From Chitinophaga pinensis (GTDB lineage: Bacteria > Bacteroidota > Bacteroidia > Chitinophagales > UBA10324): a DNA stretch of 37,287 nucleotides. This document shows, one piece after another, positions 4,031 through 16,205 of this stretch (position 1 is its first letter; the number at the start of each line of letters is the position of its first letter). The stretch lies in assembly GCA_945903305.1 (NCBI GenBank), contig CAMDOA010000021.1, forward strand, positions 1 to 37,287. Direction: 5' to 3'. The notes under the pieces were generated by a model. That model did no database searches and had not been told where the DNA came from. It was given only the letters and a program-made list of their open reading frames with translations. Made by a program: the position numbers and the translations under genes.

Positions 4031-4313
4031 ACAACACTTTCCATGATTTCAATAGTGGTACCCGTTCTCTGAATCATACTCTTCGTCATTTCAATAGTGG
4101 TATTGGTACTACGGATACAACTCTCCATTATTTCAGTAGTGGTATTGAAACATTGCATACCACTTTCCGGAATTCGGATAGTGGTATCCAAACTCTGCAT
4201 AGTACTATCCAAACTTTTCATAGTGGTATCGGGAATCTGGATAGTACTATCCGAATTCAAAATAGTACTATCCAAATTCAAAATAGTACTATTTCATTTT
4301 CAAATAGTGCTTT
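4031..4313. repeat. 21-bp phased array with palindromic core ATAGTACTAT / ATAGTGGTAT
   Basis: Fourteen consecutive units start every 21 bases without slip: 4031, 4052, 4073, 4094, 4115, 4136, 4157, 4178, 4199, 4220, 4241, 4262, 4283 and 4304. The 10-base core is a perfect palindrome, ATAGTACTAT, in four units (4199, 4241, 4262, 4283), ATAGTGGTAT in four (4094, 4178, 4220 and, with one change, 4136), and degenerate elsewhere. GG-type and other units alternate over much of the left part, giving a 42-base superperiod. The unit lacks stops, so several frames on both strands stay open for about 250 bases and encode heptads such as xxxDSTI; the minus-strand reading (4024-4281) begins at TTG and has no recognisable start region. 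I treat it as noncoding satellite-like DNA or a binding-site array, without excluding a heptad-repeat peptide. Confidence 0.85.
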
Positions 4314-4805
4314 TTTAGTTAAAAAATTAACAATTCAGTTTATAATCCATAAATTATAACATCATTGACAGCCATTATTCAAGAACTCAAAAACAATTTA
4401 TTGCATTTAAAAAAGGTATCAATTTAAACAATACCCGAAGGGCTTTAAGTGGCACCGCCTAACACCCGGCATTTTCACAAATAAAGGAATTGTGAATAAT
4501 GATTTATGATTTTAGATTTATGAAGACTTCAACTCCCTCAGTGTCTCCTTAAGCATTTGCCTTTTCGCTAATTGCAATCCTCGCTTCTTATCGTTCTTAA
4601 TAGCAAAGGTCTCAGCGCTTTCACCTCTGTGTCCTTTCACTGCACATTCCATTGCTTGGGGAAACACAGAGGGAGGAGGAGTTATTCAAAATCGCAGCCA
4701 CGCATACTGGATTATACAGTAAATTAAATTTAGTACTATTGACCTTTCAACCGCAATAACCATTACCTTAGAAATACATTTTGTTAATTTTAAACATCAA
4801 AAATC
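4314..4805. other. Gene-free stretch upstream of the LRR gene
   Basis: No ORF, tRNA or strong hairpin is seen. Bases 4325-4430 are very AT-rich. Bases 4430-4480 contain a small GC-richer patch (CCCGAAGGG). Bases 4520-4680, read on the minus strand, resemble the degenerate noncoding text often found between Bacteroidota genes (CACAGAGGTGAAAGC, CTCTGTGTTTCC). The last 100 bases are the AT-rich leader of the LRR gene; TACATTTTG at about 4777 resembles a -7 box with one extra base, with no good -33 partner. Confidence 0.5.
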
Positions 4806-6615
4806 ATGAAAGCAAAACTACTTCTTGCAACTACTTTCTTACTTACAAATCTTGCGACTTTAAGCGCTCAAAATGTAAACATTCCCGACCCCCGCTTTTA
4901 AAGCGGCCTTGGTTGGAAATGCATTTATAAACACTAGTGGTGATGCTGAAATTCAGCTCTCAGAAGCCACTGCTTATTCAGGCTCTTTATCGGTAAACAA
5001 CTTAGTAATTTCAGAACTAACAGGCATTGAAGCTTTTACAACTCTTACTAATTTGAATTGTTCCAATAATCCATTAACAAGTTTGGATGTGTCTGCTAAT
5101 ACAGCTCTTACTTCGTTGATTTGCGGCAGTAATCAATTAACAAGTTTGGATGTATCTGCTAATACAGCTCTTACTTTATTGAATTGTCCCTATAATCAAT
5201 TAACAAGTTTGGATGTGTCTGCTAATACTGCTCTTTCAACTTTGTATTGTTACAATAATCAATTAACAAGTTTGGATGTGTCGGCTAATACAGCTCTTTC
5301 AACTTTGCGTTGTTACAATAATCAATTAACAAGTTTGGATGTGTCTGCTTGTACAGCTCTTTCTACTTTGTACTGCTTAAATAATCAATTACCAAGTTTG
5401 GATGTGTCTGCTAATACAGCGCTTACTGAGTTGCAATGTTCCAGTAATCAATTAACAAGTTTGGATGTGTCGGCTAATACAATCCTTAATTGGCTCGAAT
5501 GTTACAATAATCAATTAACAAGTTTGGATGTGTCGGCTAATACAGACCTTAATTATTTGGATTGTGACACTAATCAATTAACAAGTTTGAATTTGCCTGC
5601 CAGTACAGCTCTTGAAGGGTTGCATTGCGCGGAAAATCAATTAACAAGTTTGGATGTGTCGGCTACTACAGCTCTTGCTGCTTTGTATTGCGGCAATAAT
5701 CAATTTACAAGTTTGGATGTTTCTGCTTGTACAGCTCTTTATACTTTTTACTGCTTAAATAATCAATTAACAAGTTTGGATGTGTCTGCTAATACAGTTC
5801 TTGGTAGTTTGCGTTGCGAGGATAATCAATTACCAAGTTTGAATTTGTCTGCTAATACAGATCTTTTTAATTTGTCATGCGCCAATAATCAAATAACAAG
5901 TTTGAATGTGTCGGCTAATACAGCTCTTGCTGAGTTGCAATGTTCCAATAATCAATTATCAAGTTTGGATGTGTCGGCTAATACAGCTCTTTTTAATTTG
6001 TCATGCGCCAATAATCAATTAACAAGTTTGAATGTGTCGGCTAATACAGCACTTATTACTTTGTCTTGCGCTAATAATCAATTAACAAGTTTGGATGTGT
6101 CTGCTAATACAGCTCTTACTACTTTGTCTTGCGCCAATAATCAATTAACAAGTTTGAATGTGTCGGCTAATACAGACCTTATTACTTTGTCTTGCGCTAA
6201 TAATCAAATAACAAGTTTGAATGTACAGAATGGCAATAATGCAAATTTCTATTCTTTTTTGGCAACCAGTAACCTCGGGTTAAGCTGTGTGCAAGTGGAT
6301 GATACCACCTATATGAACACCAACTGGCCGAATGCAATAGATGCATCTGCAAGTTACAGCACTAACTGTATAATTGGTAATATAGGCTACACTACCAATC
6401 CCGATATCGTTGCATACCCTAATCCAACAACAGATATATTATATTTATCAGATTTCTGCAATGTGATACTCACTGACATAATCGGCAAAGTAATTCTTGA
6501 AAAACAACATGTGAAGGTACTGGATATTTCCAATCAAGCCGCAGGTATGTATTCCATTTTGCTCAGTGATAGGAATGGAAAATTTATTCAACGAATGAAA
6601 GTAATTAAAGAATAG
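4806..6615 (+). CDS. Secreted leucine-rich repeat protein with T9SS type A sorting domain, apparent frameshift
   Basis: The natural start is ATG 4806, encoding a signal peptide (MKAKLLLATTFLLTN...LSAQ) followed by NVNIPDP. The frame then hits TAA at 4899-4901. Removing one C from the C-run 4889-4893 restores IPDPAFKAALVGNAFINTSGD, the usual start of this LRR family, and joins the 568-codon frame ending at 6615. The body has 18 full 21-residue LRRs (NQLTSLDVSANTALTTLSC type), then a cysteine-bearing cap and a C-terminal sorting domain (VAYPNPTTDILYLSD ... GMYSILLSD ... MKVIKE) that directs export by the type IX system and cell-surface attachment. As written the signal peptide is separated from the body. 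This is a phase-off allele, a pseudogene or a sequencing error. The LRR frame has no ATG near its beginning, only TTG 4909. A hairpin terminator follows. Confidence 0.85.
5068..6201 (+). repeat. Eighteen 63-bp tandem repeats within the LRR gene
   Basis: Eighteen consecutive 63-base units (21 codons each) run from Asn codon 5068 to 6201, with a partial nineteenth beginning at 6202. The segment AATCAATTAACAAGTTTGGA is almost invariant between units, while the codons for the 6-8 residues after TALx vary. High DNA identity makes copy-number change by recombination or replication slippage likely, and makes the region prone to assembly collapse. Confidence 0.93.
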
Positions 6616-8012: not shown

Positions 8013-11000
8013 ATGAAAACCAGAAGCAAGTTCATCTTAAATTTAAGTCTAATGAATAGACTTTACAAGGGAGAAATGCTTATCAGAATTAAAATTTTAT
8101 TCGTATTCGGCTTTATTTTTCTACTTCATTATTTTCCTGCTAAATCTCAATCAACCAATTGTACCAATTCAAATTTTGAATTAGGCGATTTCTCAAATTG
8201 GCAGGGCGGAACCGGAACTCCAAATGGAAATTCAGGAAATAATCCGGGGGGTTGCTGTCAGATTGTAATTAATAACATATTGAATTCTGGTGGTTTAATT
8301 CCACCAAGGCACACCATTACCAATCCAATTACTGACCCCAATACTTTTAATAATTTAAATCAAGTGGCTCCCGGTGGAAATTTTTCAGCCAGATTGGGTT
8401 CTTGGCAAAATTCTTTTTATGCACAAAATAATCCGGGGCCATTTCCGGGTTCAAAAGCTGAAATGCTTCGATATACTTTTACAGTTACTCCAGCTTCAGA
8501 ATTATTTGTTTATCAGTATGCAGTTGTTTTAGAAGATCCGAATTACAATGTTACCCAGCACTCGCATGGTGAAAAACCACGATTTGAAATCAGCGTACTT
8601 GATCAAGCCGGAAATTATGTTCCAAACGCATTGTGCGGTCACTACCTTGTGGTTGCCGATTCAAATAACGCCGGATTTTTACCCGGAATTTTAACTTCCG
8701 CTTCTCAGGTTCATTATAAAAACTGGACCACGGTCGGTATAAATTTAACCGCTTACATGGGTCAAGTAATCACTATCGAGTTTAAAGTAGGTGATTGCGC
8801 ACTGGGTGGGCATTTTGGTTATGCCTATATTGATGCTTATTGCGCGCCGCTTGAAGTGCTTGCCCAATATTGCGTTGGGCAAAATCAGGTGGTGTTAACA
8901 GCGCCTCCCGGATTTAGTTATTTGTGGATGCCGGGTGGATTTACCACTCAAACCATAACCATAAATAATCCGCAGATTGGTGCGGTTTACACTTGTGATT
9001 TAACTTCTATTACCGGTTGTGTAGCTACTATTTCTACTATTGTTCAACCTACTTTAATAACTCCAAATTTTGGTTATCAGGTTGATTGTAATTTAAATAC
9101 TGTTTTATTTTTTGATTCAACTACCGTTCAAAACGGAACGGCATCAAACTGGTCGTGGAATTTTGGGGATAATTCTACTGTGATGAATGGGGTTCAAAAT
9201 CCGGTTCATACTTATTCCGGCCCCGGAACCTATAATGTAACACTTACTATAACTTCAGTTGCAGGTTGTCAGGCATCGGTTACAATTCCAATCACCATTC
9301 CATTGGTAACTGTTGATGCACCTTCGAGCACCATTTGTGCCACCGCATTTGTAACCATTAATGCAAGCGGAGCAAGTAGCTACGAATGGAGTCCGTCAAC
9401 CGGTTTGAATGTTACAACCGGTGCTACCGTTCAGGCATCGCCAACTGTGAGTACCACCTACACTGTAACAGGTTATAATGTAAATGGATGTTCGGGAACC
9501 ACCACCGCATTTGTGCACATTGCCCCCAATCTTGTGGTAAATGTTACAGCAGTAAATGATAGTTTGTGCATGGGGCAATCAACTGTTTTGAATGCCATGG
9601 GCGGAACAAACTATACATGGAGTCCTTCCATCTATTTGAATTCAACAACAGGAACAACGGTAATTTCTTCTGCAATTGCAAATATTACTTACACGGTTTT
9701 CGTAACAAATGCAAGTGGTTGCAGCGGACAGGCAAGTATTCCGATTACATCTCTCTCCAATCCTGTTGTTTCATTAAATAATCCTGCGGCTTGTTTGGGG
9801 CAAAGTGCTGTGCTAAATGCAAACGGTGCACTTTCCTATCAATGGTCAAATGGTTCAACCGGAAATTCAATTTCTGTCAGTCCGATAGTGAACACCAATT
9901 ACACTGTGATTGGGTCTGATGGATTTTGCAGTGATACAGCAAGCGGATTAGTCACCATTAATCCGCTGCCAATTGTAAATGCCGCACCTAATGGAAATAT
10001 TTGTTTAGGTGGAAGTATACAATTGAATGCAACCGGTGCATCAACTTATACATGGTCGCCATCAACGGGTTTGGATTTTTCAACAGGTTCAATTGTAAAT
10101 TCTACTCCTATAACATCAACTACTTATACTGTAACCGGAACAGATTTGAATGGATGCAGTGCATTGGCACCTGTAACAATCATTGTCAATAATCCACCTG
10201 TAATTTCTGTTGTTGCTACAGATTACATTTTATGTATTGGTTCAAACGCAACATTAACTGCAAGCGGAGCTTCCACTTATTCCTGGGCACCTTCAACCGG
10301 TTTATCAGCATCAACCGGAAGTTCTGTTTTAGCAAATCCAATTTTAACAACTACCTATACTGTAATTGGAGTTAATGCTTTCAGTTGTGCTGATACAACT
10401 ACTATAAATATTGTTGTTTCTCCGGGGCCTCCGATTTCATTAACAAGTACCAATCCTATTATTTGTGTTGGCGGAAGCACTACCTTAACGGCAACAGGTG
10501 CAAGTACTTATTCATGGAGTCCGGCTGTTAATCTGAATACTTCAACAGGTTCAGTGGTTGTTGCATCCCCTATCGTTACTACTACTTATCAGGTGGCTGC
10601 ATTAGATGCGTTTGGCTGTGCGGCCAATGCGGTTTCCATTGTAATTGTTAATCCATTACCAATAATCAATTCAACTTCAACAGGAAATATTTGTGCAACG
10701 GGAACAGTGCAGTTAGGTGCAACAGGTGCAACAACCTATCAATGGAGTCCATCAACAGGTTTATCGGCTACAAATGGAAATTCAGTGAATGCAACTATTT
10801 CCAATACAACAACCTATACCGTTGTTGGAATTGATGTGAATGGTTGTTCTGCAGTATCGTCAGTTGTTGTAAATGTTTTTCCTGACCCGGTGATAAGCGC
10901 CACTGCTAATTCAACCATATTATGTACTTCGTCAAGTGCAACATTAAATGCGAGTGGTGCAATCAATTATTCATGGAGTCCGTCTGCTGGTTTATCATCA

Positions 11001-14000
11001 TCAACGGGAAGTTCGGTGCAAACCACACCGAGCGCTTCTGTTACATACACAGTTATTGGAATTGATTTGAATGGATGTGCTGATACAGCCACAATAAATA
11101 TTACTGTTTCGCCTGCGCCACCAATAACTATTGCCAGTACTAACCCAATAATTTGCAGCGGGGATAACACAACACTGACTGCTTCGGGAGCAAACACATT
11201 TACCTGGAGTCCTTCCTCAAGTTTAAATGCATCAACCGGTTCCGTGGTTATTGCCTCGCCAATCACTACAACTACTTATACCGTATTAGCCATTGATACT
11301 TCAGGTTGCATTGCTAATTCTATTTCAACTGTAGTGGTAAACCCAATTCCTGTTATAGGAGTAACTCCAATTGCTCCTGCGCTTTGTTTTGGTGAAGCCA
11401 CTTCGTTAACTGCAAATGGCGCTTCAACTTATACCTGGTCGCCATCAACGGGGCTTAGTGTTACAGTTGGAACTTATGTTACAGCTTATCCATCAGTAAC
11501 CACAACTTATACAGTGGTTGGAAGTTCAGCATCGGGATGTACCGCGTTGAATTCTGTGGTGGTCAATGTTTTTCCAAATCCGGTTTTAAATGTACTGGCA
11601 AATAATCCACAAATCTGTTTCGGACAAAGTGCAATTTTAACAGCATCGGGCGCATTAACTTATATCTGGTCGCCTTCTTTTAATTTAAGCAGTTCAACCG
11701 GAAGCAGTGTAAATGCCACGCCGAACTCAACTACTATTTATACAATCATTGGTGCTGATGTAAATGGATGTACTTCTGCGGCCAACACCAGCATTATTGT
11801 AAATCCGAACCCAATAGTAAATGCATTTTCCAATACAGTATTTGTGTGCTTAGGAACAAGTGCATCGTTGGGAGCAAATGGTGCGAATTTTTATTCGTGG
11901 AGTCCATCAACCGGTTTATCAAATACAACCGGAAATATTATTCAGGCAATACCCAACACAGCCATAACTTATACAGTAACCGGAACAAATCTTTACGGGT
12001 GTACTGATACAGCAATGAAAAGCGTGTATGTAAATCCTTTGCCGGTTCTAAGTATATCGAGCACTAATCCTGTGATGTGTGTTGGCGACAGTGCCACTCT
12101 TATAGCAAGTGGAGCAGTTTCATACACATGGTCACCAATTACTTTTTTAAATTCATCAACAGGAGCAAGTGTTATAGCCAATCCGAATTCAACAATTTAT
12201 TATATAGTAGCTGCAACCGATTCGAATGGATGTGTTGGTTTCGATTCGTCAATTATAAATGTGAATCCGCTTCCTGTAATTATAACCTCCGGCTCAGATT
12301 CATTTTGTTTGAATCAATCCATTACTATTTCAGCAAGTGGTGCAACGGTTTATAACTGGAGTCCTTCAACAGGATTAAGCGGCACAACAGGAAATTCAGT
12401 AACTGCATCTCCAATCACTTCAACCACATATACAGTTTCTGGTACTGATGTGAATGGATGTTCTGCTTTAGATGATATTCCGGTTACAGTAAATCCTTTA
12501 CCAATTGTAATTGCATCAACGACGACGCCAACATTGTGTTTAAATACGAGTGCTCTGTTAACAGCAACAGGAGCAGTAATTTATAATTGGAGTCCTTCTA
12601 TTAATTTGTCTTCTTCAATTGGCGACTCAGTCATTGCATCGCCAACAACTTCAACCACATATTCAGTTACAGGAATTGATTTAAATGGATGCACTGCCAC
12701 ATCATCGCAAAGTATTTTAATAAATACATTACCGGTTATTGCCGGTTCTGATTCTGCAATCTGTTTTGGATTTTCAACTCCGTTGAATGCAACAGGTGCA
12801 AGTACTTATACATGGACCCCTGGAACAAATCTGAGTTCAACAATTGGCGCAACAATAATTGCAAATCCGGTTTCAACTATTACTTATACAATAACAGGAA
12901 CTGATGTGAACGGATGCACAGGAATTTCAACTTCTGTAGTAATTATAAATCCATTGCCAATAATTAATGTTTCAGCAGTTGATTCAACTTTTTGTTTAGG
13001 ACAATCAACCACTTTGAATTCAAGTGGTGCAACCGTTTATAGCTGGAGCCCTTCAACAGGATTGAATAACACAACAGGAAATTCAGTTATTGCTTCTCCA
13101 ACAAATTCAATCACCTATACTGTTTCAGGAACTGATGTGAATGGATGTTCTGCTTTGAGTAATATTCCGGTTACTGTAAATCCATTGCCAATTGTGATTG
13201 CCTCAACCTCAACACCCACTTTGTGTTTGAATGCAACTGCATCCTTAACTGTTACGGGAGCTTCAACATACACATGGAGTCCTTCTATAAGTTTATCTGC
13301 TTCTACCGGAAGTTCGGTAATTGCATCACCAACTTCTTCAACAACTTATTCGGTTACAGGAACCGATTTGAATGGGTGCACTGCTACTTCAACACAGAGT
13401 ATTTTGACAAATTCTTTTCCGATTATTTCAGGGACTGATTCAGTAATATGTTTTGGATTTTCAACTCCACTGAATGCAGCAGGTGCCAACACTTATACCT
13501 GGAGTCCTGGAACAAATCTAAGTTCAACAAATGGTGCAACAGTAATTGCCAATCCAATTTCAACAATCACTTATACAATAACAGGAACTGATGTAAACGG
13601 ATGCACGGGAATTTCTACTTCGATTGTGATAATTAATCCATTGCCAATAATTACTGTTACAGCAGTTGATTCAACTTTTTGTTTAGGACAATCCACTACT
13701 TTGAATTCAAGTGGTGCAACAGTTTATAACTGGAGCCCTTCAACAGGATTGAGTGCAACTACAGGCATATCAGTTATAGCTTCACCCACAAGTTCAACCA
13801 CATATACTGTTTCAGGTGTTGATGTAAATGGATGTTCTGCTTTAAATAATATTCCGGTTACAGTAAATCCATTACCAATAGTAATTGCGTCAACTGCAAC
13901 TCCCACTTTATGTTTGAATGCAAGCGCTACTTTAACTGCAACAGGAGCATCAACATACAACTGGAGTCCTTCGGCAAGTTTATCGGCTTCTACCGGAAGT

Positions 14001-16205
14001 TCGGTAATTGCAACACCAACTTCTACTATTACTTATTCGGTTACAGGAACCGATTTGAATGGATGCACTGCCTCTTCCACACTAAGTATTTTGATAAATA
14101 CATTGCCTTTAATTGCCGGTTCTGATTCAGCCATATGTTTTGGATTTTCAACTCCATTGATTGCAACCGGAGCCAGTACTTATACCTGGAGTCCGGCTAC
14201 AAATCTGAGCTCAACCAATGGCGCAACAGTAATTGCAACTCCTGCTTCAACCATCACATATACAATTACCGGAACTGATTTAAATGGATGCACCGGAGGT
14301 TCTACTTCAATCGTTATAATAAACCCATTGCCAATAATTAATGCAACTGCGATTAATTCAACATTCTGTTTGGGACAATCAACAATATTAAATGCAAGCG
14401 GTGCATCGGTTTATAACTGGAGCCCGTCAACTGGATTGAGTGCAACCACAGGAAGCTTTGTTTCAGCTAGCCCGTCAATAAATTCAACTTATACCGTTAC
14501 AGGTAGCAATTCGTTCGGCTGTGTATCAAGCAATACAATTTCAGTAGTTATTTATCCATTGCCGGTAGTGAATATCACTCCCAATACTCCTGCTGTTTGT
14601 CCGGGTGAATTTGCAATACTGACTGTAACAGGCGCATTAAATTATTTATGGTCAACCAATGCCTTAGGAAATACCATTGCAGTAAATCCGATTGTGAATA
14701 CCCTGTATTCGGTTATCGGCACTGATGTAAATGGCTGTACGGCTAGTGATAGTACCACAGTCATAATTAATCCGGTTCCAATAATTTCAGCTCAAGCACA
14801 ACAATCAACTTTATGCATTGGTCAATCAACCAGTATAACTGCAAGCGGTGCTGTTACTTATTCATGGTCGCCTTCAAATGGTTTAAGTGCTACTTCAGGT
14901 TCGATGGTTATTGCAACTCCAGGCTTATCCCTTACATATACCATTATCGGAACCAATGCCACAGGATGTAAAGACACAACTACCATTTCATTAATTGTTA
15001 ATTCGCTTCCTTCTGCTGCTGCCGGTGTTGATGAAAATATTTGTGAAGGAAGTTCGGTTCAGTTAAATGCAAGTGGCGGAACAACCTATGAATGGAGTCC
15101 GGCTACCGGTTTAAGCAGTACGAATATTGCTGATCCTATTGCATCACCCACTTCAACTATTTCATACATTGTTATTGTTGCAAACCTGAATGGATGTTTT
15201 GCAAGTGATACAATACAAGTAGTAGTTCACCCTTATCCAGTAATTGATGCAGGTCCGGCACAAACTGTTTGTTATCCAAATTCAACTCAGTTACAAGGAA
15301 GCGGAGCATCAATCTATAGCTGGCTTCCGGTTCTTTATTTGAACAATAGTCAAATTCAAAACCCGGCTTGTATTCCATTATCAAATATCACATACACTTT
15401 AACTGGCACCGATAATTTCGGTTGCATGGCTACCGATACTGTTTCAATAAAACTGATGATGCCTTTTCAGATTATTGCATCATCTGATGTTATGATTTGT
15501 TACAGCGAAAGCATTCAATTGTTTGCATCCGGTGGAAATAATTATCAATGGACTCCGCCTGATGGTTTAGATAATACGACCATTGCAAACCCAACTGCTT
15601 CGCCATCCAATACAACTACTTACATTGTAACCTCAACAGATGGAGTTTGTTTTACTTCATCAGATTCAGTAGTTGTAACCGTCATTCAAATACCTGAAAT
15701 TTTTGCTGGTGCTGATGCTGAAATGATTTATGGACAGACTTATCAATTGAATGCTTTTACAAATGGCGGAAGTATTTTATGGGAACCTTCTACTTTTCTT
15801 GATTGCGCTACTTGCGAAGATCCGATTGCCTCGCATGTAAATATTCCAATAACTTACAAGTTGACAGTTACCGATTCATTTGGTTGTAAGGCAGAAGATT
15901 ATATAAAAATTAATTTGGCATGCGACGATGATGTCTTTTTTATACCCAATACTTTTACACCGAATGGCAATGGGAAAAATGATATTTTCAGAATCAGAAC
16001 TTATGGCTTAAGTTATATATCTGCATTCAGAGTATTCAACCGGTGGGGCGAAATGGTATTTGAAACATATGATGTGAATGAAGGTTGGGATGGCACCTGG
16101 CAGGGTAAACTTTGTACTCCTGCTGTATATGTCTGGTACATTCAAGGCACTTGCGCAAATGGTGTGGAGTTACGAAAAAAAGGGAATGTGACTTTGATCC
16201 GATAA
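8013..16205 (+). CDS. Giant modular surface protein, PKD plus about 29 Ig-like modules, T9SS type B sorting domain
   Basis: A 2,730-residue secreted protein. ATG 8013 gives a 27-residue n-region before the hydrophobic core; ATG 8076 (MLIRIKILFVFGFIFLL...AKSQ), preceded by AAGGGAGA, gives a normal signal peptide and may be the true start. Residues about 50-290 form a unique N-terminal domain, followed by a PKD domain (about 350-430; WSWNFGDNST ... HTYSGPGTYNVTLTI). From about 435 to 2,630 there are roughly 29 modules of about 75 residues with the pattern ICxGxSxTLTASGASTYxW, SPSTGLSxxTG, TTTYTVTGTDxNGC, VNPLP; most have two cysteines, possibly a disulfide. The C-terminal 90 residues (IPNTFTPNGNGKNDIFRI ... 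VFNRWGEMVFET ... GWDGTW) are the gliding-motility-associated type B sorting domain (CHU_C). An adhesin or stalk role is inference. The gene stands alone; no enzyme domain is seen. Confidence 0.95.
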   Translation: MKTRSKFILNLSLMNRLYKGEMLIRIKILFVFGFIFLLHYFPAKSQSTNCTNSNFELGDFSNWQGGTGTPNGNSGNNPGGCCQIVINNILNSGGLIPPRHTITNPITDPNTFNNLNQVAPGGNFSARLGSWQNSFYAQNNPGPFPGSKAEMLRYTFTVTPASELFVYQYAVVLEDPNYNVTQHSHGEKPRFEISVLDQAGNYVPNALCGHYLVVADSNNAGFLPGILTSASQVHYKNWTTVGINLTAYMGQVITIEFKVGDCALGGHFGYAYIDAYCAPLEVLAQYCVGQNQVVLTAPPGFSYLWMPGGFTTQTITINNPQIGAVYTCDLTSITGCVATISTIVQPTLITPNFGYQVDCNLNTVLFFDSTTVQNGTASNWSWNFGDNSTVMNGVQNPVHTYSGPGTYNVTLTITSVAGCQASVTIPITIPLVTVDAPSSTICATAFVTINASGASSYEWSPSTGLNVTTGATVQASPTVSTTYTVTGYNVNGCSGTTTAFVHIAPNLVVNVTAVNDSLCMGQSTVLNAMGGTNYTWSPSIYLNSTTGTTVISSAIANITYTVFVTNASGCSGQASIPITSLSNPVVSLNNPAACLGQSAVLNANGALSYQWSNGSTGNSISVSPIVNTNYTVIGSDGFCSDTASGLVTINPLPIVNAAPNGNICLGGSIQLNATGASTYTWSPSTGLDFSTGSIVNSTPITSTTYTVTGTDLNGCSALAPVTIIVNNPPVISVVATDYILCIGSNATLTASGASTYSWAPSTGLSASTGSSVLANPILTTTYTVIGVNAFSCADTTTINIVVSPGPPISLTSTNPIICVGGSTTLTATGASTYSWSPAVNLNTSTGSVVVASPIVTTTYQVAALDAFGCAANAVSIVIVNPLPIINSTSTGNICATGTVQLGATGATTYQWSPSTGLSATNGNSVNATISNTTTYTVVGIDVNGCSAVSSVVVNVFPDPVISATANSTILCTSSSATLNASGAINYSWSPSAGLSSSTGSSVQTTPSASVTYTVIGIDLNGCADTATINITVSPAPPITIASTNPIICSGDNTTLTASGANTFTWSPSSSLNASTGSVVIASPITTTTYTVLAIDTSGCIANSISTVVVNPIPVIGVTPIAPALCFGEATSLTANGASTYTWSPSTGLSVTVGTYVTAYPSVTTTYTVVGSSASGCTALNSVVVNVFPNPVLNVLANNPQICFGQSAILTASGALTYIWSPSFNLSSSTGSSVNATPNSTTIYTIIGADVNGCTSAANTSIIVNPNPIVNAFSNTVFVCLGTSASLGANGANFYSWSPSTGLSNTTGNIIQAIPNTAITYTVTGTNLYGCTDTAMKSVYVNPLPVLSISSTNPVMCVGDSATLIASGAVSYTWSPITFLNSSTGASVIANPNSTIYYIVAATDSNGCVGFDSSIINVNPLPVIITSGSDSFCLNQSITISASGATVYNWSPSTGLSGTTGNSVTASPITSTTYTVSGTDVNGCSALDDIPVTVNPLPIVIASTTTPTLCLNTSALLTATGAVIYNWSPSINLSSSIGDSVIASPTTSTTYSVTGIDLNGCTATSSQSILINTLPVIAGSDSAICFGFSTPLNATGASTYTWTPGTNLSSTIGATIIANPVSTITYTITGTDVNGCTGISTSVVIINPLPIINVSAVDSTFCLGQSTTLNSSGATVYSWSPSTGLNNTTGNSVIASPTNSITYTVSGTDVNGCSALSNIPVTVNPLPIVIASTSTPTLCLNATASLTVTGASTYTWSPSISLSASTGSSVIASPTSSTTYSVTGTDLNGCTATSTQSILTNSFPIISGTDSVICFGFSTPLNAAGANTYTWSPGTNLSSTNGATVIANPISTITYTITGTDVNGCTGISTSIVIINPLPIITVTAVDSTFCLGQSTTLNSSGATVYNWSPSTGLSATTGISVIASPTSSTTYTVSGVDVNGCSALNNIPVTVNPLPIVIASTATPTLCLNASATLTATGASTYNWSPSASLSASTGSSVIATPTSTITYSVTGTDLNGCTASSTLSILINTLPLIAGSDSAICFGFSTPLIATGASTYTWSPATNLSSTNGATVIATPASTITYTITGTDLNGCTGGSTSIVIINPLPIINATAINSTFCLGQSTILNASGASVYNWSPSTGLSATTGSFVSASPSINSTYTVTGSNSFGCVSSNTISVVIYPLPVVNITPNTPAVCPGEFAILTVTGALNYLWSTNALGNTIAVNPIVNTLYSVIGTDVNGCTASDSTTVIINPVPIISAQAQQSTLCIGQSTSITASGAVTYSWSPSNGLSATSGSMVIATPGLSLTYTIIGTNATGCKDTTTISLIVNSLPSAAAGVDENICEGSSVQLNASGGTTYEWSPATGLSSTNIADPIASPTSTISYIVIVANLNGCFASDTIQVVVHPYPVIDAGPAQTVCYPNSTQLQGSGASIYSWLPVLYLNNSQIQNPACIPLSNITYTLTGTDNFGCMATDTVSIKLMMPFQIIASSDVMICYSESIQLFASGGNNYQWTPPDGLDNTTIANPTASPSNTTTYIVTSTDGVCFTSSDSVVVTVIQIPEIFAGADAEMIYGQTYQLNAFTNGGSILWEPSTFLDCATCEDPIASHVNIPITYKLTVTDSFGCKAEDYIKINLACDDDVFFIPNTFTPNGNGKNDIFRIRTYGLSYISAFRVFNRWGEMVFETYDVNEGWDGTWQGKLCTPAVYVWYIQGTCANGVELRKKGNVTLIR
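9330..15750 (+). repeat. Array of about 29 Ig-like modules, roughly 225 bp each
   Basis: Counting the ICxG / LCLN / VCxG cysteine motif followed 15-20 residues later by a W-S-P motif gives about 29 modules. Outer modules (first ten and last five) are diverged, central ones are much more alike, consistent with recent expansion from the middle of the gene. Confidence 0.85.
12280..14440 (+). repeat. Higher-order tandem repeat, exact 687-bp period (three Ig modules)
   Basis: Three distinct module types (A: FCLGQSTTLNSSGA; B: TPTLCLNASA; C: ICFGFSTPLNATGA) recur in order A-B-C. Anchor strings fall at 12307, 12994, 13681 and 14368 for A, at 12538, 13225 and 13912 for B, and at 12762, 13449 and 14136 for C; every interval is 687 bases (229 codons). 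This shows block duplication of a three-module unit with no indels. Confidence 0.92.

Follow-up and report, generated by a model that had tools for sequence, protein, structure and literature searches.

At positions 4031–4313 of the window (the whole stretch of 37,287 nucleotides that was analyzed), short palindromic cores recur at a spacing of two helical turns, which raises the question of what such an array is and to which gene, if any, it belongs. The phased array, to which no strand is assigned, consists of 14 dyad-type 10-bp cores separated by 11-bp spacers; the cores start at 4031, 4052, 4073 and so forth up to 4304, with a successive offset of exactly 21 bp. This register of 14 units, as claimed in the original prediction, is borne out by the core list, by Tandem Repeats Finder (a period of 21 in the right part of the array, with a higher score for a period of 42) and by the autocorrelation (z of 14 at lag 42). 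The two-core pattern at 21-bp spacing matches the window five times, compared with zero matches expected by chance. Most units in the right half (4199–4313) carry the perfect palindrome ATAGTACTAT. In the left half (4052–4198), the orientation alternates between ATAGTGGTAT and a ATACCACTAT-like core, and a 42-bp unit thus comprises two inverted sites: ATAGTGGTAT/C is found at 4052, 4094, 4136 (with the first base changed), 4178 and 4220, and its degenerate reverse complements are interleaved at 4073 (ATCATACTCT), 4115 (ATACAACTCT) and 4157 (ATACCACTTT). The left half had been described as a core alternating with other, decayed variants; the alternation is confirmed, but the variants are degenerate reverse complements and not a decayed mixture. 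The complementarity between the cores is 0.79 at unit distances 1 and 3 and 0.65 at distance 2. A heptamer (TTCAAAA/TTCAACA) with a 7-bp period at 1138–1193, in the 3′ end of an M1-peptidase gene, is a microsatellite and a different element.

The host genome is a Bacteroidota assembly of 3.1 Mb in 138 contigs. A combined pattern and DNA search found two further related arrays in it, at C3:396–741 and C108:624–885, each preceding the start of the same gene (MTAFIQELKNRFIALKNGM...) by approximately 50 bp. The intact 5′ parts of this gene occupy C3:3–344 and C108:3–572, and its 3′ part runs off the contig at both sites. Hence, two of the three arrays in the genome are followed by intact 5′ parts of the gene, and the third, that of the window, is followed by a remnant. 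Alignment with both sister loci shows a conserved A+T-rich leader on the + strand from the array to the gene start (4314–4365), followed by the 5′ remnant of the gene (4366 to approximately 4450, + strand), a frameshifted pseudogene of the helix plus Fn3 type that we designate as family 1. The leader and the first codons persist, frameshifted, and the homology fades beyond approximately 4450; therefore, the window contains a decaying copy of an array-plus-gene locus from which the gene has been lost. A locus in a second genome (L108 in G399) likewise consists of an array and a 5′ gene remnant. Compared with both sisters, the window array has one additional 21-bp unit near its right end, which hints at the proposed growth from that end, but the middle of the C3 array is 84 bp longer than the window copy. 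Near the C3 array (L007:1000–1440), a strong hairpin, GATGCCATCGCTTGGAGCGATGGCATC, occurs twice at a distance of approximately 395 bp, and the two copies are probably terminators or a repeated element.

The array had been noted to lie upstream of a surface protein gene; its partner gene is the remnant from approximately 4366 and not this leucine-rich repeat (LRR) gene 500 bp away. The LRR gene (4806–6615) has a 63-bp coding repeat, a type IX secretion tail and a frameshift in a run of C near 4889, which places its signal-peptide and repeat parts in different frames; an assembly error or a variable tract is possible. Further downstream, 8013–16205 encodes a 2730-aa protein with at least 10 Ig-like (Ig_7) and PKD domains and a CHU_C type IX secretion domain.

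When the genome collection was scanned with the pattern, 42 array loci were obtained; many lie in Bacteroidota assemblies that each contain several arrays. Among the 12 array-bearing genomes that were followed up, seven contain the family 1 gene, and every full-length copy with available upstream DNA has an upstream array. In a gene-first search, 395 genomes of the class were scanned with a profile and without regard to arrays; the gene proved to be rare (six genomes), and periodic DNA is present upstream at all six new loci (L115–L120). Their unit sequences are very different: L115 has 42-bp units, L116 has CGAATCTTTCCCGAAAACATG-type units, L117 has a 43-bp unit, L120 has TGTTTTTGCCGATCACACGAC, and the arrays of L118 and L119 are degenerate and A+T-rich. 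Among 18 family 1 loci (including two remnants), the best lag is a multiple of 21 at 14 loci and a multiple of 22 at two, and the other two loci have a best lag of 43, a periodicity never matched in 300 shuffles; part of this family was selected array-first, the periodicity threshold is arbitrary, the assemblies are drafts, and the analysis covers three gene families. One genome contains both L117 and L120, paralogues whose proteins are 97% identical; their arrays differ (43-bp versus 21-bp units), which indicates that the arrays turn over much faster than the genes. Additional strongly periodic 21/42-bp arrays are present on the same contigs in L125 (approximately −2585 to −2385 relative to the family 1 gene) and L122 (+698 to +900). 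Neither the array nor the gene was found in the 15 other genomes of the host's family. Absence of the register in relatives had been proposed as the mark of a neutral minisatellite; because these genomes also lack the gene, the missing register does not settle that point, and the register recurs wherever the gene recurs.

Two of the arrays adjoin other orphan genes, that of L027 a second family and that of L037 a third. When families 2 and 3 were searched by gene in 295 genomes each, arrays were present at 18 of the 22 family 2 loci and at 8 of the 11 family 3 loci. As a control, M1-peptidase genes in the same genomes have arrays at 5 of 29 loci; for the loci found by the gene only, judged at an equal threshold, the comparison is 29 of 38 versus 5 of 29 (p = 1.7e-6). 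In families 1 and 3 the array is upstream of the gene; in family 2 this holds for part of the loci, and one branch has the array just downstream. Away from the orphan genes, the same genomes contain approximately six periodic windows per 100 kb. We conclude that the array element is real and recurrent and that its linkage to the orphan genes is supported by the controls. Outside the three families, L179:40–400 has an array upstream of an M1-type peptidase gene with a period of 41 bp, which is not a multiple of 3.

The cores are wholly different among the arrays (ATAGTACTAT, GAAGTACTTC, TTGAATTCAA, TTTCCCGAAA, and GGAGACGACTTT alternating with AAAGTCGTCTCC). The dyad complementarity between neighboring units exceeds that of column-shuffled arrays in 12 of 27 cases at p < 0.05, with a combined p of 5e-11 that is somewhat generous because the host genome's own arrays are mutually related; taken singly, about half of the arrays have no significant dyad signal. 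The period is the second constant, with lags of 21/42/63, 22/44/66 and 43. The tight values of 21 ± 1 and 42 ± 1 correspond to two and four helical turns, the whole-turn period expected of a protein-binding array. Because the periods recur and the complementarity exceeds that of the shuffles while the letters of the arrays are unrelated, it is supported by the controls that spacing and symmetry are kept and the sequence is not. The window by itself revealed neither the link to the genes nor the alternation of orientation nor the free sequence. The original prediction that all cores face the same side of the helix also gains support: next to members of the same gene families, arrays of unrelated sequence repeatedly show periods of 21, 22 and 43 bp. 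The complementarity at unit distances 3 and 5 equals that of neighbors, with no wobble bias and no pair-specific covariation, which accords better with inverted sites in duplex DNA than with hairpins that co-evolve. Intrinsically curved DNA was rejected on the absence of a 10.5-bp A-tract signal (no excess power over column shuffles, combined p of 0.10 and 0.48). A scan for TAnnTTTG promoters gave no consistent placement, with the exception of four loci of one genome, where the motif lies between the array and the gene.

The linked genes encode proteins with a similar layout. Family 1 (16 members) has predicted helices at residues 3–21, 33–85 and 90–96 and a C-terminal Fn3 domain; its model has a mean pLDDT of 83 and a pTM of 0.48, and the relative placement of the domains is uncertain. 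The family 2 model (pLDDT of 87) likewise consists of helices and a C-terminal Fn3-type domain, and family 3 by inspection seems helix-rich with a beta-rich C-terminal part. For families 1 and 2, structure searches gave no hits other than Fn3-type domains (family 1 was searched against the PDB and viral structures), and no profile-profile similarity between the two families was detectable. Searches of Pfam, NCBIfam, PHROGs and PADLOC gave no named family, only weak Fn3 and other sub-threshold matches, and no known DNA-binding domain was detected in the linked proteins. Relatives were found neither in plasmids or viral contigs (family 1) nor in phage records (family 2). Because visual inspection of the family 1 sequences revealed no obvious signal peptide, the protein is likely cytoplasmic.

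As a working explanation, we tentatively prefer, at somewhat less than even confidence, an array of dyad sites in helical phase that acts in cis and nucleates a nucleoprotein complex at these loci. The locus would have two parts, the phased array and a small gene whose product combines an N-terminal helical region with a C-terminal beta-sandwich. The sites would be bound as double-stranded DNA by a dimeric or polymerizing protein; with sites two turns apart on the same side, the bound units could touch and form a regular nucleoprotein complex, which may act in cis on the locus by silencing, bridging or marking it. The linked protein would be the first candidate binder; that no known DNA-binding domain was detected in these proteins speaks against the explanation. 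Since the architecture and not the sequence is what is kept, the array and its binder may drift together, or the binder may read shape and spacing. The unrelated arrays beside close paralogues argue against classical sequence-specific recognition, and the downstream array in one family 2 branch, the arrays away from the orphan genes and the many arrays whose dyad signal is not significant singly also stand against a nucleoprotein complex. The wider proposal, of a recurrent Bacteroidota element in which selection keeps only the architecture of the array (one dyad site per two turns) and the paired helix plus beta-sandwich proteins assemble on it, is possible but doubtful. If true, it would define a class of loci that inherit position and symmetry with free letters and are missed by ordinary homology searches, would point to proteins that read the spacing or shape of DNA, and would open a first route to the function of three orphan protein families, testable in culturable Bacteroidota.

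A neutral or selfish minisatellite, generated by slippage or template switching on short palindromes with the mutational machinery setting the period, is a rather unlikely origin of the arrays. Dyad sequences are generally known to promote slippage, turnover and changes in unit number are very rapid, and the same genomes contain arrays without a linked gene; the association with orphan genes would then arise because arrays accumulate at labile intergenic sites where such genes also come and go. However, a neutral process is not expected to favor three orphan families over a housekeeping gene of the same genomes, nor to hold the period at 21–22 bp in one family after another while the sequence varies freely. 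Even if the arrays are products of slippage, it would need explaining why the mutational process is tied to 21 bp and to these genes. An ordinary operator array, in which the palindromes are bound by a locus-specific and sequence-specific regulator of the adjacent gene, is highly improbable. Palindromic cores in helical phase are typical of repressor arrays, the arrays lie mostly upstream of the gene, and the ATAG-CTAT core recurs in several lineages. Against this, no conserved regulator gene is present beside the family 1 loci, close paralogues in one genome carry different arrays, and one family 2 branch has its array downstream. Moreover, across 398 genomes of the order, ATAG-CTAT does not occur as a common pair: outside the host, an exact-core search returned mainly short terminator-like inverted repeats and no 21-bp array; therefore, this core is not a common regulon site.

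If neighboring cores paired in a transcript or in single-stranded DNA, they would form stems of approximately 10 bp with 11-nt loops, and the folded array might be what is recognized, as in the attC sites of integrons. We regard this as distinctly unlikely. The complementarity is independent of the sequence and the predicted folding is strong (z down to −11), but sense and antisense folding are about equal, units at distances 3 and 5 are as complementary as neighbors, G–T is not favored over A–C, and a period of 21 bp is no requirement for hairpins. A structured RNA was rejected on the lack of strand bias and of pair-specific covariation and on the absence of a match in Rfam. Hardly any credence is given to a coding repeat, in which the array would encode a short peptide repeat of the xxxNSTI type, although the period is usually divisible by 3 and an open sense frame runs through the arrays of the host genome, L058, L116 and L120. 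The claim that the frames are open on both strands stood for the sense strand (two frames with 0 and 1 stops in 285 bp) and failed for the antisense strand (6, 8 and 2 stops). Some arrays have periods of 22, 41 or 43 bp, none of the six frames is free of stops in L107, L112 and L053, and stop counts are not below those of column shuffles in any frame. An excess of synonymous changes is not confined to the open frame, although the same test recognizes the LRR control gene as coding (27 observed versus 16.5 expected); a codon-column entropy test gave no signal for the arrays and was discarded because the LRR gene, its positive control, gave none either. The heptad reading of the original prediction is therefore rejected on the period, stop and synonymous-substitution tests.

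In the open-access literature, we found no description of such arrays or of the ATAG-CTAT core. The element is apparently of an undescribed kind among bacterial DNA elements, and we rate it as a new class because its period and symmetry are fixed and its sequence is free. Iteron and centromere arrays of plasmids and chromosomes consist of direct repeats of approximately 20–22 bp in helical phase. The present arrays share this spacing and phase, but their sequence is free between loci and their partners are helix plus beta-sandwich orphans. An iteron origin or centromere was rejected, as inspection of the open reading frames listed around 14 family 1 loci revealed no recognizable Rep or Par genes or conserved neighbors. 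BIMEs combine short palindromes in alternating orientation, as here, and repeat one conserved sequence genome-wide, whereas each array locus has its own unit; REP/BIME elements, for which one palindrome family spread across the genome and a RAYT transposase are expected, were rejected because the pattern and DNA search gave only three related arrays in the host genome. An attC site comprises only one imperfect palindrome, located downstream of a single-gene cassette, and its structure is kept while its sequence varies. The present loci resemble it in keeping structure beside single genes while the letters vary, but they have 10–20 phased units, and no integrase was seen near the family 1 loci. 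A CRISPR array, with identical repeats of 23–47 bp and unique spacers, does not match the variable 10-bp cores and the 11-bp spacers, which are similar or identical within an array.

The closest published element is the BrickBuilt MITE of Porphyromonas gingivalis, which contains an intergenic 23-nt minisatellite. BrickBuilt and the 464/PgRS repeats (PMC4596501) are also intergenic tandem arrays with several copies per genome in a Bacteroidota genome. Their direct repeats of 23 nt and 41 nt differ from the dyad cores at a period of 21–22 bp, and BrickBuilt copies have one common sequence and terminal inverted repeats (PMC4596501), whereas the units here differ between loci and the arrays accompany orphan genes. 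A MITE is marked by terminal inverted repeats, a target duplication and one sequence in all copies; the sequence here differs between loci, and the copies in the host genome run off the contig ends. Arrays with a 21-bp period were also observed in two Treponema assemblies (L028:3771–3948 and L039:4609–4807), with a ATACCGGTAT palindrome and unrelated spacers. Assemblies of rumen Prevotella (L026, L038, L040, L052 and L059) contain several short arrays of a ATAGTAGTGT core at 21 bp, with an identical unit at several loci within each genome.
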